Assembly (NCBI GenBank): GCA_937138395.1
Contig: CAKZPB010000111.1
Coordinates: 1-32,284 of the forward strand
DNA: 32,284 nucleotides
Source: an uncultured Pseudomonadota bacterium
GTDB taxonomy: Bacteria; Pseudomonadota; Gammaproteobacteria; Xanthomonadales; Wenzhouxiangellaceae
Direction: 5' to 3'
The position numbers and the translations under genes are program-made. How positions within the stretch are numbered: the first letter of the stretch is position 1; the number at the start of each line of letters is the position of its first letter. The notes below the pieces were generated by a model. The model did not search any database. It was not told where the DNA came from and saw only the letters and a program-made list of their open reading frames with translations. This document shows positions 79-3,754 of this stretch, piece after piece.

Positions 79-909
79 TTAGCCAAAAGCGAACCATCCG
101 ATTCCAATCTCCTTAACGCCCTTGTGCCTGCCTGAAACTTCAGTGTCATCAAGAATTTGGGTAATTGCTTGAATATTCTCTGTAAGTAACTTCCTTATTT
201 GTCTCGAGACCCTTGGGTAATCGTCCTCTAGAATGTATTTCGACCATCGAAGTTGCTGGACGCGCTTCTCCGATGAATCTTGTTCGCTAAGATTGTGTAA
301 AACGGTTTCACACAACCTTGCAATGGCTGTTGATCCGGCATTTAACACCGTGAGCTGAGATGGCCTTGCCGGCTCATAAAAACGGCTTTTCATTCGCACG
401 AAGTTGTTGTCTACAACCTCGACGTTTCCTGACTCGATCAGATGATCCAGAACCGTGCGGGGAGTAACGTTTCTGCCGACTTCGCGCATTACGATGCCCT
501 GAAATGAACCAGCGCCACCAGAAATTGGGATAATCTTGGGCTGTTTATTCTCGTCAATGTATTCAGGATAAAAACTCCACGCATGCAGAACACCAGTTTC
601 TGCAGAAATATTGATTTGACGAAGACGTTCTTTTGAAGTTTTATTTTCTTCAAGCGACTTGATTGTTCGAGTATCAAGACCGCTGAGCATTGCCAACTTT
701 GATCGGGTGACGCGCTTGGTCCCAGAATGACCTGATTGAATCCAGGCCCTCGCTTCATCTAGGTAAATCTCCTTGACCAAATTCAAAATAAAATTACAGG
801 AAATTTTCCCCACGAACAGTCTGATCAAAGGACGGAGAATTCTTTCAAGGTAAAGTCCAAATTTTTCAGCTTGATCACGCGGTTGTCTGATATCTGCAAC
901 AACTGACAT
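79..909 (-). CDS. DUF6502-like putative HTH regulator, copy 1
   Basis: This 276-residue protein is clearly homologous to the one at 1891-2706. Both share an N-terminal helical block (LRPLIRLFVG, residues 25-34), a segment rich in aromatic and acidic residues (IYLDEARAWI), and a conserved C-terminal end (IGIGWF). Residues 65-88 (VTRSKLAMLSGLDTRTIKSL) look like a helix-turn-helix, as in XRE/MarR-type DNA-binding domains. The overall pattern fits the DUF6502 family as I remember it, whose function is unknown. The ATG at 909 is about 20 nt downstream of the predicted transcription start from the promoter at 936-964; no strong ribosome binding site is visible. The gene is separated from the repeat-protein gene upstream by a terminator, so it is a separate transcription unit. 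A role as a repressor or activator of the module is inference. The stop is TAA at 79-81. Confidence 0.72.
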   Translation of the reverse strand: MSVVADIRQPRDQAEKFGLYLERILRPLIRLFVGKISCNFILNLVKEIYLDEARAWIQSGHSGTKRVTRSKLAMLSGLDTRTIKSLEENKTSKERLRQINISAETGVLHAWSFYPEYIDENKQPKIIPISGGAGSFQGIVMREVGRNVTPRTVLDHLIESGNVEVVDNNFVRMKSRFYEPARPSQLTVLNAGSTAIARLCETVLHNLSEQDSSEKRVQQLRWSKYILEDDYPRVSRQIRKLLTENIQAITQILDDTEVSGRHKGVKEIGIGWFAFG

Positions 910-933
910 AACGAATTTCTACTTAGTAAAAAT

Positions 934-969
934 AGACAATATTGCATTTAGCCATTTATGTCAATAATA
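934..969 (-). promoter_or_regulatory. Promoter/operator element, copy A (for DUF6502 copy 1)
   Basis: On the minus strand, TTGACA (plus 959-964) and TATTGT (plus 936-941) are separated by exactly 17 bp, a good sigma-70 arrangement. The 36-bp block matches the block at 3491-3526 upstream of the EAL gene at 31 of 36 positions, including the whole -35 and -10. The conserved sequence extends past both boxes (TATTGTCTAT on one side, CATTTATGTCAATAA on the plus strand), so it may also contain a shared operator. The predicted transcript start near 929 leaves a short leader before the ATG at 909. Confidence 0.75.
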
Positions 970-986
970 GAACGAAAGATTTCCAT

Positions 987-1017
987 AAAAAGAAACGCTG
1001 CCAATTGGCAGCGTTTC
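987..1017 (-). terminator. Rho-independent terminator for the EAL/DUF6502/repeat-protein operon
   Basis: Positions 992-1017 form a perfect 26-bp palindrome whose half-site is GAAACGCTGCCAA. Read on the minus strand, the hairpin is followed by TTTTT (complement of the A run at 987-991). It lies between the repeat-protein gene and DUF6502 copy 1 and upstream of the latter's promoter. It would therefore separate the two transcription units. Confidence 0.85.
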
Positions 1018-1039
1018 GCCCCATCTACCAAGACGATTG

Positions 1040-1065
1040 AGCTGAAATGGGGGTGAATTTCAGCT
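1040..1065. repeat. Second inverted repeat in the same gap
   Basis: AGCTGAAAT (1040-1048) and ATTTCAGCT (1057-1065) are perfect 9-bp complementary arms around an 8-base G-rich loop. No T-run follows on either strand. It lies just downstream of the repeat-protein stop codon and may be an RNA-stability hairpin or a protein-binding site; its role is not known. Confidence 0.5.
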
Positions 1066-1083
1066 GATCGTCAATGGCCGTAA

Positions 1084-1827
1084 TTAAAGGTGATTTACTG
1101 GAATTTCCAGTGCTGAGATCTCCTGCATTCCACCATTTCCATCTGCCTGAAATACCAAAACATCTGCAGTATTTCGGTTCAATGAGATTTCGGCATAACC
1201 CCAGATAGTGCTTGCGCTTTCTTGACCAGTGCCTGATCCAACCAGATCTGTTGATTGGCCGGTTCCTGAACCTACTAGATCTGTAGACTGGCCTGTACCT
1301 GATCCCACCAGATCGGTCGACTGGCCTGTGCCTGATCCAACAAGATCCGTCGACTGGCCTGTGCCTGATCCCACCAGATCCGTTGATTGTCCGGTACCTG
1401 ATCCAACAAGATCTGTCGATTGGCCAGTTCCTGATCCCACGAGATCGGTTGAGCTTCCCGTTCCAGATCCTACAAGGTCAACGACTCCATTGTTATCAGG
1501 CCGTTCAAATAAAGGAATAATTGCATAACTATCCTTGACCGAAGCTACACCAATGATTGAGGTATAACCACTTTCAAAGGTTATCGAGATTGCTTCATTG
1601 TTTTTGATTACGTTAAAACTCCGCTCCGAGGCTGACACGTAACCTGATACGCACATCAAAACTAAGAGCGAGGTGAATAGTTGCCTGGCGATTCCAGTCC
1701 CTGAACGTTTTATACCGGTTCCATCTCGTTCAATTCCAGTACCTGATCTTTCAATTCCGGTACCAGACCGTTTGATTCCGGTTCCTGAACGCTCAATTCC
1801 AGTTCCATCTCTTTCAATCGTAAGCAT
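1084..1827 (-). CDS. Exported protein with two sets of short perfect peptide repeats
   Basis: This 247-residue protein is not one I recognise. Residues 4-45 are six heptads of the form I-(E/K)-R-(S/D)-G-T-G. They precede a hydrophobic segment (about 49-63) ending in VSA at 64-66, which looks like a signal peptide with an unusually long, charged n-region, or else a membrane anchor. Residues 67-116 are non-repetitive. Residues 117-204 are eight 11-residue units DLVGSGTGxxT, six of them identical (QST). Residues 205-247 form a short unique end. Both repeat sets share the core SGTG. The start is supported by GGAG seven bases upstream of the ATG at 1827. It lies 63 bp downstream of DUF6502 copy 2 and probably shares the EAL operon's transcript. 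No lipobox is present. A surface or periplasmic role is inference. Confidence 0.75.
   Translation of the reverse strand: MLTIERDGTGIERSGTGIKRSGTGIERSGTGIERDGTGIKRSGTGIARQLFTSLLVLMCVSGYVSASERSFNVIKNNEAISITFESGYTSIIGVASVKDSYAIIPLFERPDNNGVVDLVGSGTGSSTDLVGSGTGQSTDLVGSGTGQSTDLVGSGTGQSTDLVGSGTGQSTDLVGSGTGQSTDLVGSGTGQSTDLVGSGTGQESASTIWGYAEISLNRNTADVLVFQADGNGGMQEISALEIPVNHL
1216..1479 (-). repeat. Eight tandem 33-bp coding repeats (DLVGSGTGQST)
   Basis: Eight in-frame 33-bp units each encode DLVGSGTG plus three residues. At the DNA level neighbouring units differ at several third codon positions (for example agatct, agatcg and agatcc variants), yet the peptide is unchanged in units 2-7. This pattern suggests selection on the protein rather than very recent slippage. 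Confidence 0.9.
1693..1818 (-). repeat. Six tandem 21-bp coding repeats (IERSGTG)
   Basis: Six in-frame 21-bp units encode IERDGTG, IERSGTG, IKRSGTG, IERSGTG, IERDGTG and IKRSGTG, immediately before the hydrophobic segment of the repeat protein. Units vary at synonymous positions and at the E/K and S/D positions, while R, G, T, G and I are fixed. Confidence 0.88.
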
Positions 1828-1890
1828 TTTGAATCTCCTAGCAAGTATTATTTATTGGCTTCCCCCCTTACGTTTTAAACTTAAAAAATT

Positions 1891-2706
1891 TTAATTGAAC
1901 ATAAACCAACCTATGCCGATAGTGCATGTTGGTGTCTTACCATCTTCGATGATTTCGTAATCAAGAATAATCTGCTCAATTTCAACAATTTGCGTCGCAA
2001 GCTTATCTCTCAAAGCTTTTTGCACATCCGGGATTTTTTCGCAGGGTATTGTCGTTGTCCATCGATCCTGCTGAGTTAACTTATTTTCAGAATGAAAATT
2101 ATGTTGAACAGTTCTAATCAACCTTCCAATGGACGCTGTTCCCGAGTCAATAATCGTTTGCTCGTTCGCTTTCAGGGGCATGTAATTAATGCTTATCATT
2201 TTTAAATGATTTTCATCAACGATTTCGACGTTTTCAGAGTCAATCAATTTTTCAAGAACAGTGTGATACGTAACATTTCTACCGACCGATGAGGTCACCA
2301 GAGTCTGAAACGTAGGACCTTTTCCAGCAATTGGTAGAATTTTTGGTGTTCCATCTTCATTTTGATAATCGGCCTTATGAGACCAATTGGTTAAGACAGA
2401 CGCTTCAGCGCACAATTCAGCCTCAGCGTTTTCTAATGAGGGACTTGATTCAATGCTTGTAATAGTCCGGGTATCTAAACCCGTGAGCATTGCAAGCTTG
2501 GATTTTGTAACTCGCCCATCAGGCTCATTCTTTTCGATCCAACTGCGAGCTTCTTCGATATATACGCGCTTCATTCGCTGGATCATGAAGCCGCACGAAA
2601 CACGGCCCACAAATAACCTTATAAATGGCCTTAATACGCGTTCCATTGCGCTGACAATGCGTTCAATATTCTCCGAATGATTCACCTGCTGCTGGGTATT
2701 CATCAT
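1891..2706 (-). CDS. DUF6502-like putative HTH regulator, copy 2
   Basis: This 271-residue paralogue of the protein at 79-909 aligns along its whole length. Shared blocks include LRPFIRLFVG (26-35), EEARSWI, the HTH-like VTKSKLAMLTGLDTRTI (66-82), SVGRNVT followed by TVLEKLI, and the terminal IGIGWF. The ATG at 2706 overlaps the EAL stop codon by 4 bp (ATGA) and has GGGAG seven bases upstream, so translation is coupled to the EAL gene. A second ATG follows directly at 2703. Being second in the operon that starts at the copy B element, it would be made together with the EAL protein. DNA binding and autoregulation through the shared 36-bp element are inferred from the HTH-like segment and the layout. 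Confidence 0.75.
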   Translation of the reverse strand: MMNTQQQVNHSENIERIVSAMERVLRPFIRLFVGRVSCGFMIQRMKRVYIEEARSWIEKNEPDGRVTKSKLAMLTGLDTRTITSIESSPSLENAEAELCAEASVLTNWSHKADYQNEDGTPKILPIAGKGPTFQTLVTSSVGRNVTYHTVLEKLIDSENVEIVDENHLKMISINYMPLKANEQTIIDSGTASIGRLIRTVQHNFHSENKLTQQDRWTTTIPCEKIPDVQKALRDKLATQIVEIEQIILDYEIIEDGKTPTCTIGIGWFMFN

Positions 2707-3470
2707 GATAATTCTCCCAGCTCGGATTCAGACTGGATGGTTTCCACCAGCTTTGGTCTTGAATAGGCAAAGCCTTGTAGCCATGAAATGCCAATCTGCT
2801 GAAGTATGTGGACCTGGTCCTGGGACTCGACGCCTTCGGCGACCAGTTCGACGCCGGTTTGTTCTGCCAGCGCCTGCAGGCCTTGGATCAATCGCACGTG
2901 GCCCTGATCGGAATCCAGAAAGCGGATCAGGCTCCGATCGATCTTGACGAAATCCACCAGTTGTGATGCGACCAGGTCCAGATTTGAAAATCCTGGGCCG
3001 AAGTCATCCAGTGCAAAACGCACGCCAAGTTTGCGCAGATCCTCAATGATAGGTCTGGATGCCATCAGATTGACTGGACCGTCAAACTCAACCACTTCCA
3101 GGATCAATCGGGCAGGATCGAGCTGAAAATGTTCCAGTTCACGCTTGATGAACTCACCAAAGCTTTTACGACTCAGCGACCCGGGGTGGATATTGATACT
3201 CACCCAACTATCAGGGTTGAGCCACTCAATGCACTCGAATGAACCCGACACGATGTCCTCGTCAAATAAGAGCCCCCTGCGGCCATAGCCTCGCTCGACA
3301 AGCTGAAATGGTGTCAGCCTGGCCAAGGACTCAGATCCTCTGACCAGAAACTCACACCATCGGTCAGACTCAAGACTGTCTACTGGACAGATATCCTGCA
3401 CGGCCATCTTGAATGGCAGCGGCCGCGAATCCTGATTGACCAGTAGTGCTTCGGTGTTCGCAATTATCAT
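2703..3470 (-). CDS. Stand-alone EAL-domain cyclic-di-GMP phosphodiesterase
   Basis: This 255-residue protein consists of little more than an EAL domain; there is no GGDEF, PAS or membrane segment. The signature reads EFL instead of EAL (E40). The other residues expected for metal and substrate binding are present: N93 (SINI), E125 (LEVVE), D155-D156 (DDFGPGFSNL), K176 (VKID), E212 (AEGVES) and Q232 (LQGF). It is therefore likely to hydrolyse c-di-GMP to pGpG in the cytoplasm. I place the start at the ATG at 3470: GGAG lies six bases upstream, and the frame's more upstream starts (3482, 3530) fall too close to or upstream of the promoter at 3495-3523. It is first in an operon with DUF6502 copy 2 (4-bp overlap) and the repeat protein. 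Confidence 0.85.
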   Translation of the reverse strand: MIIANTEALLVNQDSRPLPFKMAVQDICPVDSLESDRWCEFLVRGSESLARLTPFQLVERGYGRRGLLFDEDIVSGSFECIEWLNPDSWVSINIHPGSLSRKSFGEFIKRELEHFQLDPARLILEVVEFDGPVNLMASRPIIEDLRKLGVRFALDDFGPGFSNLDLVASQLVDFVKIDRSLIRFLDSDQGHVRLIQGLQALAEQTGVELVAEGVESQDQVHILQQIGISWLQGFAYSRPKLVETIQSESELGELS

Positions 3471-3490
3471 TGTGCTCTCCATCACTTGAG

Positions 3491-3540
3491 ATAGACAATA
3501 ATGCGGATAGACATTTATGTCAATAAGCATTTTTGTCTAT
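3491..3540 (-). promoter_or_regulatory. Promoter with nested inverted-repeat operator, copy B (for the EAL operon)
   Basis: On the minus strand, TTGACA (plus 3518-3523) and TATTGT (plus 3495-3500) have a 17-bp spacer. Positions 3491-3526 match copy A upstream of DUF6502 copy 1 at 31 of 36 bases. Here the element is also nested in inverted repeats. Outer arms ATAGACAATAATGC (3491-3504) and GCATTTTTGTCTAT (3527-3540) are complementary at 13 of 14 positions, and an inner palindrome GACATTTATGTC spans 3510-3521, overlapping the -35 box. A repressor bound here would block RNA polymerase. The binding protein is not known; a DUF6502 protein is the obvious candidate. Confidence 0.75.
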
Positions 3541-3754
3541 TAGTATGAACTGTGTCACACTTCTGAGAGCATTTCAGCGTAGATGATTGATTTTATTTGT
3601 TATTTATGTTGGGGTTTATTTGCAAGCCTACATCCGCTCAACTGGCAAGCATCGCGATCAGTGCGATCGACGGCGGGGCTTGATCCAGCCGGGATATGAA
3701 CGGAACAGCAAAGGAAGATCGATCGGGGAAGAGTCTGCGAAAAAACAGTCTGGA
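3541..3754. other. Intergenic gap between uvrB end and the EAL promoter
   Basis: I see no convincing gene in these 214 bases. A T-rich stretch (about 3585-3622) lies upstream of the EAL promoter. No clear terminator with a T-run follows the uvrB stop codon. A 65-codon frame on the plus strand starts with TTG, has no ribosome binding site and runs into uvrB, so I do not call it. Confidence 0.5.

Follow-up and report, generated by a model that had tools for sequence, protein, structure and literature searches.

Positions 79 to 3,540 of the window, the 32,284-nucleotide stretch of DNA analysed here (the complete contig 111, CAKZPB010000111.1, of a Wenzhouxiangellaceae genome), carry on the minus strand the genes of a stand-alone EAL domain protein, of two proteins of the Pfam family DUF6502 (PF20112) and of an exported repeat protein. 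The fold predicted for DUF6502 resembles that of HetR, the heterocyst regulator of cyanobacteria, which is controlled by RG[ST]GR peptides. We propose, with a probability of roughly 0.5, that the DUF6502 proteins are HetR-like DNA-binding regulators, that the exported protein encoded next to them mostly carries a cognate G[TS]G motif, as PatX does for HetR, and that the EAL-DUF6502-repeat operon and the second DUF6502 gene of the window share one kind of promoter/operator. The first-pass annotation of this DNA had named the four genes, all of which were found again; the resemblance to HetR, the family-wide link between DUF6502 and the GTG motif, and the motif-bearing heptads ahead of the signal peptide were not part of it. 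A literature search, most subscription journals being outside its coverage, returned nothing on DUF6502/PF20112, on such heptads or on relatives of HetR beyond the cyanobacteria. The assembly comprises 2.84 Mb in 142 contigs, is 99.45% complete and belongs to a genus placed by NCBI within the Gammaproteobacteria (Pseudomonadota).

DUF6502 and the fold of HetR

Both DUF6502 proteins of the window, copy 1 (79..909, minus strand, 276 amino acids (aa)) and copy 2 (1891..2706, minus strand, 271 aa), matched PF20112 above the Pfam cut-off (56.9 and 50.8 bits, respectively, vs 27), which settles the profile check named together with the original family assignment. Their predicted role as regulators agrees with matches to helix-turn-helix (HTH) and winged-HTH proteins and with the HetR-like model. 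This model was calculated for copy 2, the predicted regulator of the operon, by AlphaFold from 31 sequences (predicted local distance difference test, pLDDT, 87.6). Its best match in the PDB was the HetR chain 4j00_A (Foldseek expectation value (E) 9.2e-4, probability 1.00, template modelling (TM) score 0.41), which was also the sole Foldseek match at E <=0.001. The VIA comparison aligned residues 18-271 of the model with HetR entry 4izz over 221 residues at Z 10.0. The four entries of HetR with DNA reached Z 10.0, 9.7, 9.3 and 9.1 with 217-228 residues aligned, and the best row other than HetR reached Z 7.9 over only 53 residues. The hood strands of the HetR fold are not formed in the monomer model.

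Since Z scores of this size may arise by chance with helical models, a further test was made with sequence profiles. In a profile of repeat-linked DUF6502 proteins residues 147-237 align to HetR 183-274 (single-comparison E 0.0038), and a mostly canonical DUF6502 profile of 53 sequences, which shares at least one row (L131) with A2, aligns in the same register to HetR 185-272 (single-comparison E 0.0026). In alignment with HetR each DUF6502 profile outscored every decoy, both the 200 shuffled versions of HetR and the 200 other open reading frames (ORFs). The HetR profile consisted of two sequences that are 90% alike; searches of plasmid, phage and viral collections for further HetR sequences to widen it found none, and DUF6502 (A1 pattern) was not detected in viral contigs.

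The aligned region contains a conserved strand. Residues Q212, Q213, R215 and W216 of copy 2 are near-invariant across the 31 rows, the QQDRW codons (residues 212-216) being located at 2059..2073 on the minus strand. This QQxRW strand, elsewhere FQR or similar and sometimes with E/D in place of Q, aligns near strand beta3 of HetR, the hood strand that is bound by PatS6 according to PMC4649674. Judged by eye, a GxGxYYFE tail follows the long helix of DUF6502, as GGIPMILQMVFG does in HetR.

The G[TS]G motif in exported partner proteins

The repeat protein (1084..1827, minus strand, 247 aa) consists of heptads, a signal-peptide-like segment, a beta half, 11-aa repeats and a second beta half. Six heptads of the type I[EK]R[SD]GTG (1693..1818) lie ahead of the hydrophobic segment, which by eye is in accordance with the export predicted previously, and eight repeats DLVGSGTGQST with a 33-bp period (1216..1479) lie in the mature part. 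The usual order in the family is heptads, a hydrophobic segment with a likely AxA cleavage site (by eye), a stretch of about 50 residues, repeats of 9-21 residues that are rich in Gly, and finally a C-terminal part. In the clade of the window the heptads precede the signal peptide by visual inspection and would thus be on the cytosolic side; only the mature repeats are kept in L115. The AlphaFold model (mean pLDDT 61.5) is confident for strands within residues 69-109 and 210-243 but poor within the repeats; a fold search with it gave no clear match (best Z 6.7), and a Pfam search up to E 1 gave none either, DUF5666 included.

Compared by position, the six heptads of the window differ by 53 synonymous and 16 non-synonymous codon differences, whereas single-base changes of their codons would yield 104 synonymous vs 274 non-synonymous ones. 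Across 20 genes with 105 units the counts are 846 vs 92, and 404 vs 92 for the four heptad residues outside the GxG anchor. These positional counts replace an earlier one (90 heptads, 669 vs 61), whose search pattern limits residue changes. Among the eight central 11-aa repeats of the window 168 pairwise codon differences are synonymous and 21 non-synonymous. As synonymous differences far exceed non-synonymous ones, the motif of heptads and repeats is evidently maintained at the amino-acid level; given the same counts, a role of the heptads at the nucleotide level is unlikely. In the family of the window the motif is, judging from the genes, turned into tandem heptads ahead of the signal peptide.

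The motif is also found next to DUF6502 proteins elsewhere. Order- and class-level searches provided 55 loci, 53 with a same-strand downstream ORF and two without a usable one; five of the 53 partners failed a crude export rule and 48 were exported-like. Within the first 120 aa G[TS]G occurs in 40 of these 48 vs 22 of 197 control ORFs (Fisher 3e-22, the rows not being independent), and after shuffling in 12.9 on average and 22 at most. The survey is biased in that an exported-like start was preferred among alternatives and controls with at least four [SNDA]G[TS]G were excluded. Five of the seven partners run against Pfam are DUF5666 (PF18914) proteins. A search starting from DUF5666 (30 loci, 26 usable, two of these with <300 nt upstream) detected the motif in 11 of 11 proteins with DUF6502 directly upstream vs 5 of 13 without, and three of these five (L164, L182, L183) have a DUF6502 gene elsewhere in the sequence retrieved around them. 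At the phylum level DUF6502 was present in 15 of 299 genomes, including the source genome, and the motif in 16 of 17 downstream ORFs, four of the 17 coming from one genome; several of the motifs are in tandem, e.g. DRGIGGTG and ERGMGGTGM. Seven loci from other classes of the phylum (L197, L198, L199, L200, L201, L202, L204) have at least two GIGGTG-type motifs after the signal peptide. The source genome encodes a third, canonical DUF6502 (L101, G000:C106), which lies 5' of the gene of an exported 'TGSFSGFWNQPDQ' protein in whose N-terminal part no GTG motif is visible.

Partner and regulator appear to vary together. Of 70 regulators (72 loci, L009 and L137 excluded), 59 have R, Q or K and 11 have L or G next to the conserved Q (or E/D) of the strand, on its C-terminal side. 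Every one of the 46 partners in which G[TS]G is accompanied by a hydrophobic residue falls into the R/Q/K group (table [[46,13],[0,11]], Fisher 1.2e-6). Any position within the first 140 aa was accepted for the motif, and a few occurrences may be incidental. Phylogenetically independent pairs show the same direction or no difference, in numbers with which significance is unreachable.

Operon structure, promoters and conservation of the locus

The gene of the EAL protein (2703..3470, minus strand; 255 aa; Pfam EAL 126.5 bits) precedes that of DUF6502 copy 2. Its ORF had been listed as 2703-3530; since position 3530 falls within the promoter element and ATG 3470 is preceded by GGAGAG, the latter is more likely the start. 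The 4-bp overlap with DUF6502 copy 2 and the 63-bp gap from there to the repeat protein gene, both given in the first-pass annotation, are exact. The terminator described 3' of the repeat protein gene was likewise recovered as a perfect 13-bp inverted repeat (992..1017, minus strand) with a T-run next on the transcribed strand.

Both transcription units have the putative promoter TTGACA-N17-TATTGT. In the operon element (3491..3542, minus strand) the hexamers are located at 3518-3523 and 3495-3500, with the palindrome TTGACATAAATGTCTA and flanking ATAGACA half-sites; in the element of copy 1 (932..967, minus strand) they are located at 959-964 and 936-941, and the palindrome has one mismatch. 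The 36-bp element that the two promoters had been said to share is 86% identical between 932-967 and 3491-3526. In a search between positions -250 and +150 relative to the annotated start, the palindrome TTGNCA-N4-TGNCAA occurs with at most one mismatch at 14 of 16 promoters, vs 162 of 4000 random windows; about 10 of these promoters had served to derive the pattern by eye, and some of the species are near relatives. Among promoters outside its derivation L070, L080, L082 and L091 fit and L075 does not. As the palindrome is present at 14 of the 16 promoters examined, co-regulation of both promoters through its putative binding is plausible. The palindrome of the window overlaps the -35 hexamer, and we infer that it is the place of a repressor.

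Outside Wenzhouxiangella the leaders (260 nt 5' of DUF6502; L065, L066, L114, L116, L117) contain hairpins with GGA in the loop, which resemble CsrA/RsmA sites. The number of such hairpins was reached by none of 60 shuffles in 5 of 13 leaders, and the window leader has none. Rfam searches gave no match in L114, L116 and L117 and only tRNAs on 10 sources.

Conservation of the neighbourhood, set beforehand as the test of the module, was surveyed in 151 genomes (the source genome and 150 relatives). DUF6502 was detected in 53 of them and a repeat-protein match in 38, some of the latter being simple-repeat matches only. A repeat rule was applied to 40 loci, namely the window and 39 of the 40 loci retrieved, the DUF6502-only stretch L101 being left out. 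L094, L096, L100 and L102 were discarded as matches to simple repeats, L097 and L099 are pieces cut off by contig ends, and L090, L095 and L098 contain DUF6502 and failed the rule. In all 30 accepted loci DUF6502 is encoded immediately 5' of the repeat protein. A set of 30 loci from named genomes, many of them the same genomes (Wenzhouxiangella, Lysobacterales, Xanthomonadales, Oceanospirillales and metagenome-assembled Gammaproteobacteria), showed by our reading the repeat protein in 27 of 28 loci with visible downstream sequence. The contigs stop inside or at the repeat protein gene in L066, L068, L071, L076, L079 and L088; the number of repeats in a draft assembly is therefore not reliable. 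In L100 the repeat-protein query had matched a long coding run of the RIPNPES/GFGIRDS type, which looks like a different simple DNA repeat.

In family f1, that of the window, 14 of 15 loci have an EAL gene immediately 5' of DUF6502, and in the other one (L086) the sequence does not extend that far; L093, with a reduced repeat gene, was put into this count by hand. Eleven motif positions are identical in 14 of 14 operon EAL proteins and have the residues expected of a phosphodiesterase (E..L, N, E, E, DD, K, E, E and Q), in line with the predicted activity. In the 75 other loci from the DUF6502 search, 73 of them with at least 600 nt upstream, Pfam identified an EAL gene directly 5' in four (L027, L028, L029, L005). 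Three of these, L027-L029, group with the window clade in a quick tree (24 rows, support 95 in the Shimodaira-Hasegawa-like approximate likelihood ratio test; L027 on a long branch). The fourth, L005 from a congener (G003:C2), combines a canonical DUF6502 outside the window clade with a partner without the motif and an EAL gene directly upstream. This locus contradicts the EAL gene as a mark of one clade only and indicates, by its canonical yet EAL-linked regulator, that the EAL linkage is gained or lost more than once.

The region is, as had been stated, more A+T-rich than the remainder of the window (GC content 45.2% vs 55.7%). The acquisition suggested on this ground was not borne out as a recent event, because the GC content of the operon is below that of its flanks in 19 of 19 loci, the gap of the window being the largest, and because copy 2 pairs in the tree with the copy of Wenzhouxiangella sp. 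XN79A (support 90, not starred). Copy 1 belongs to a starred clade of five rows together with copy 2, L103, L104 and L211. The second DUF6502 copy of the congener G003 (L211) adjoins uvrB, as does the window module. A class II D/K/N tRNA synthetase gene (asnS by eye) adjoins DUF6502 in L103 according to Pfam, and by eye in L114 and L116. Of the two copies in the window, copy 1 may be the older one. Downstream of copy 1 the sequence is cut off by the contig end; asnS was considered as its left neighbour and discarded, the source genome giving only weak partial matches to an asnS-like protein.

Proposed circuit, rival explanations and known systems

In the proposed circuit DUF6502 dimers would bind the palindrome overlapping the core promoter, and peptides from the cytosolic-side heptads would bind the C-terminal hood-like part beside the QQxRW strand. 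Peptide binding would change the DNA binding of DUF6502, and expression of the operon, including the gene of the regulator itself, would track how much precursor or clipped signal peptide is present. Through the EAL phosphodiesterase this putative autoregulation would be linked to cyclic di-GMP (c-di-GMP), whose level would fall while the operon is on. According to PMC8682488, c-di-GMP bears on heterocyst development in Anabaena, which is an analogy only.

PMC12756182 describes the patX-hetR module as one of filamentous cyanobacteria, PatX as a Sec-exported protein that pairs with HetR, and the peptide HRGTGR as an inhibitor of HetR. Several observations weigh against transferring this scheme to DUF6502. 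In the same source PatX without its signal sequence, unprocessed, did not bind HetR in a two-hybrid assay and only the hexapeptide acted, and PMC4649674 states that an extended N-terminus of PatS is restricted. Both results disfavour binding by the intact precursor, and the former makes a clipped peptide the more likely ligand of DUF6502. By eye the window partner contains I[EK]R[SD]GTG and SGTG and no RG[ST]GR, and partners elsewhere have GIGGTG-like motifs. The acids of HetR that bind PatS, E253, D270 and D278 (positions from PMC4649674), align with non-acidic positions of copy 2; to reach D270 and D278 the alignment was extended by eye without gaps. The HetR models of Pfam, Peptidase_S48 and HetR_C, were confirmed to recognise HetR; up to E 1 they do not match the DUF6502 proteins of the window, and in the source genome they match other places only, below cut-off, and never DUF6502 genes. 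The alignments of the DUF6502 and HetR profiles have hhalign probabilities of just 8.7 and 11.6%, and a DUF6502 profile search by sequence retrieves no HetR chain. The structural match is similarly limited, with Z 7.3 and 6.9 for the apo-HetR rows 3qod and 3qoe and a Foldseek TM score of about 0.4, and the tool itself warns that helical models reach such Z scores by chance. With regard to the partners, 8 of 48 lack the G[TS]G motif, the second DUF6502 copy of XN79A (L103) has no repeat partner, and 16 of 16 loci of family f8 lack an EAL gene immediately 5' of DUF6502, the upstream sequence of one being just 8 bases long. When phylogeny is taken into account, using a tree without the strand columns, the co-variation of strand and motif rests on 3-4 changes (p 0.25). 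By Pfam and by its peptide-binding residues, as aligned here, DUF6502 is not a member of the HetR family; its pair with the partner may work like HetR-PatX.

The Z score of 10, within the chance range quoted for helical models, and the lack of a significant sequence match to HetR could mean that the resemblance is a chance likeness among helical proteins with HTH and winged-HTH parts. We regard this as improbable, since HetR is the only one of the listed rows to match along the entire chain, the two profiles share one register and each surpass 400 decoys, and the GxG-motif partner had been noticed ahead of the HetR match. It is a less doubtful, albeit still rather unlikely, alternative that DUF6502 is an ordinary local regulator and that the GTG motif serves only the exported protein in tethering, folding, assembly or display, the pair being co-inherited as an operon. 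The motif is indeed also present in the mature repeats outside the cell, which are flanked by confident beta halves, and in 5 of the 13 DUF5666 proteins without DUF6502 directly upstream. However, the heptads of the window clade precede the signal peptide by eye and would stay cytosolic after cleavage, the motif is a mark of the gene following DUF6502 in partners of several types, and the match to HetR predicts a peptide-binding part. Alternatively, the repeat protein may be a silk- or amyloid-like protein of the biofilm matrix, with EAL and DUF6502 forming a c-di-GMP trigger-enzyme/regulator pair independent of peptide signalling. Repeats rich in Gly, Ser and Thr, some strands predicted in them with low confidence and an EAL protein with the expected motif residues would fit, whereas the absence of a directly upstream EAL gene in family f8, its presence in just 4 of 75 other DUF6502 loci and the low-confidence repeat structure without a clear fold match make this explanation unlikely.

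Taken more widely, the proposal of a HetR-like DUF6502 regulator would make DUF6502 a non-cyanobacterial branch of the HetR fold and a peptide-responsive class across the Pseudomonadota, whose ligand is the GxG motif that the neighbouring exported protein carries beside its signal peptide. In the relatives of Wenzhouxiangella, with their tandem array in the cytosolic n-region, the regulator would sense its own secreted product as the precursor or as the clipped signal peptide, and a c-di-GMP phosphodiesterase would be a further part of the circuit. This extension is tentative. If it is true, DUF6502 and part of DUF5666 would be given a function, peptide control of HetR-like regulators would reach wider than cyanobacterial multicellularity, and a signal-peptide n-region acting as ligand would constitute an unusual feedback.

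Among known systems HetR with PatS, PatX and HetN is similar in the predicted whole-chain fold and in having a partner with a G[ST]G motif. The window module differs from it by the missing Pfam-level match, by the tandem motif copies ahead of the signal peptide, by a partner encoded directly downstream in the operon, by the additional EAL gene and by its gammaproteobacterial host. The DUF6502-DUF5666 pairs have the same regulator family and likewise an exported GTG-motif protein downstream; the partner in the window lacks the DUF5666 domain, its motif is amplified to heptads ahead of the signal peptide, and family f1 usually has an EAL gene as well. PdeR-MlrA, which controls curli, and BluF-BluR are EAL-regulator pairs that control surface structures. 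They share with the window an EAL protein encoded alongside an HTH regulator. Their regulators belong to another family, and the operon of the window additionally encodes the exported repeat protein.

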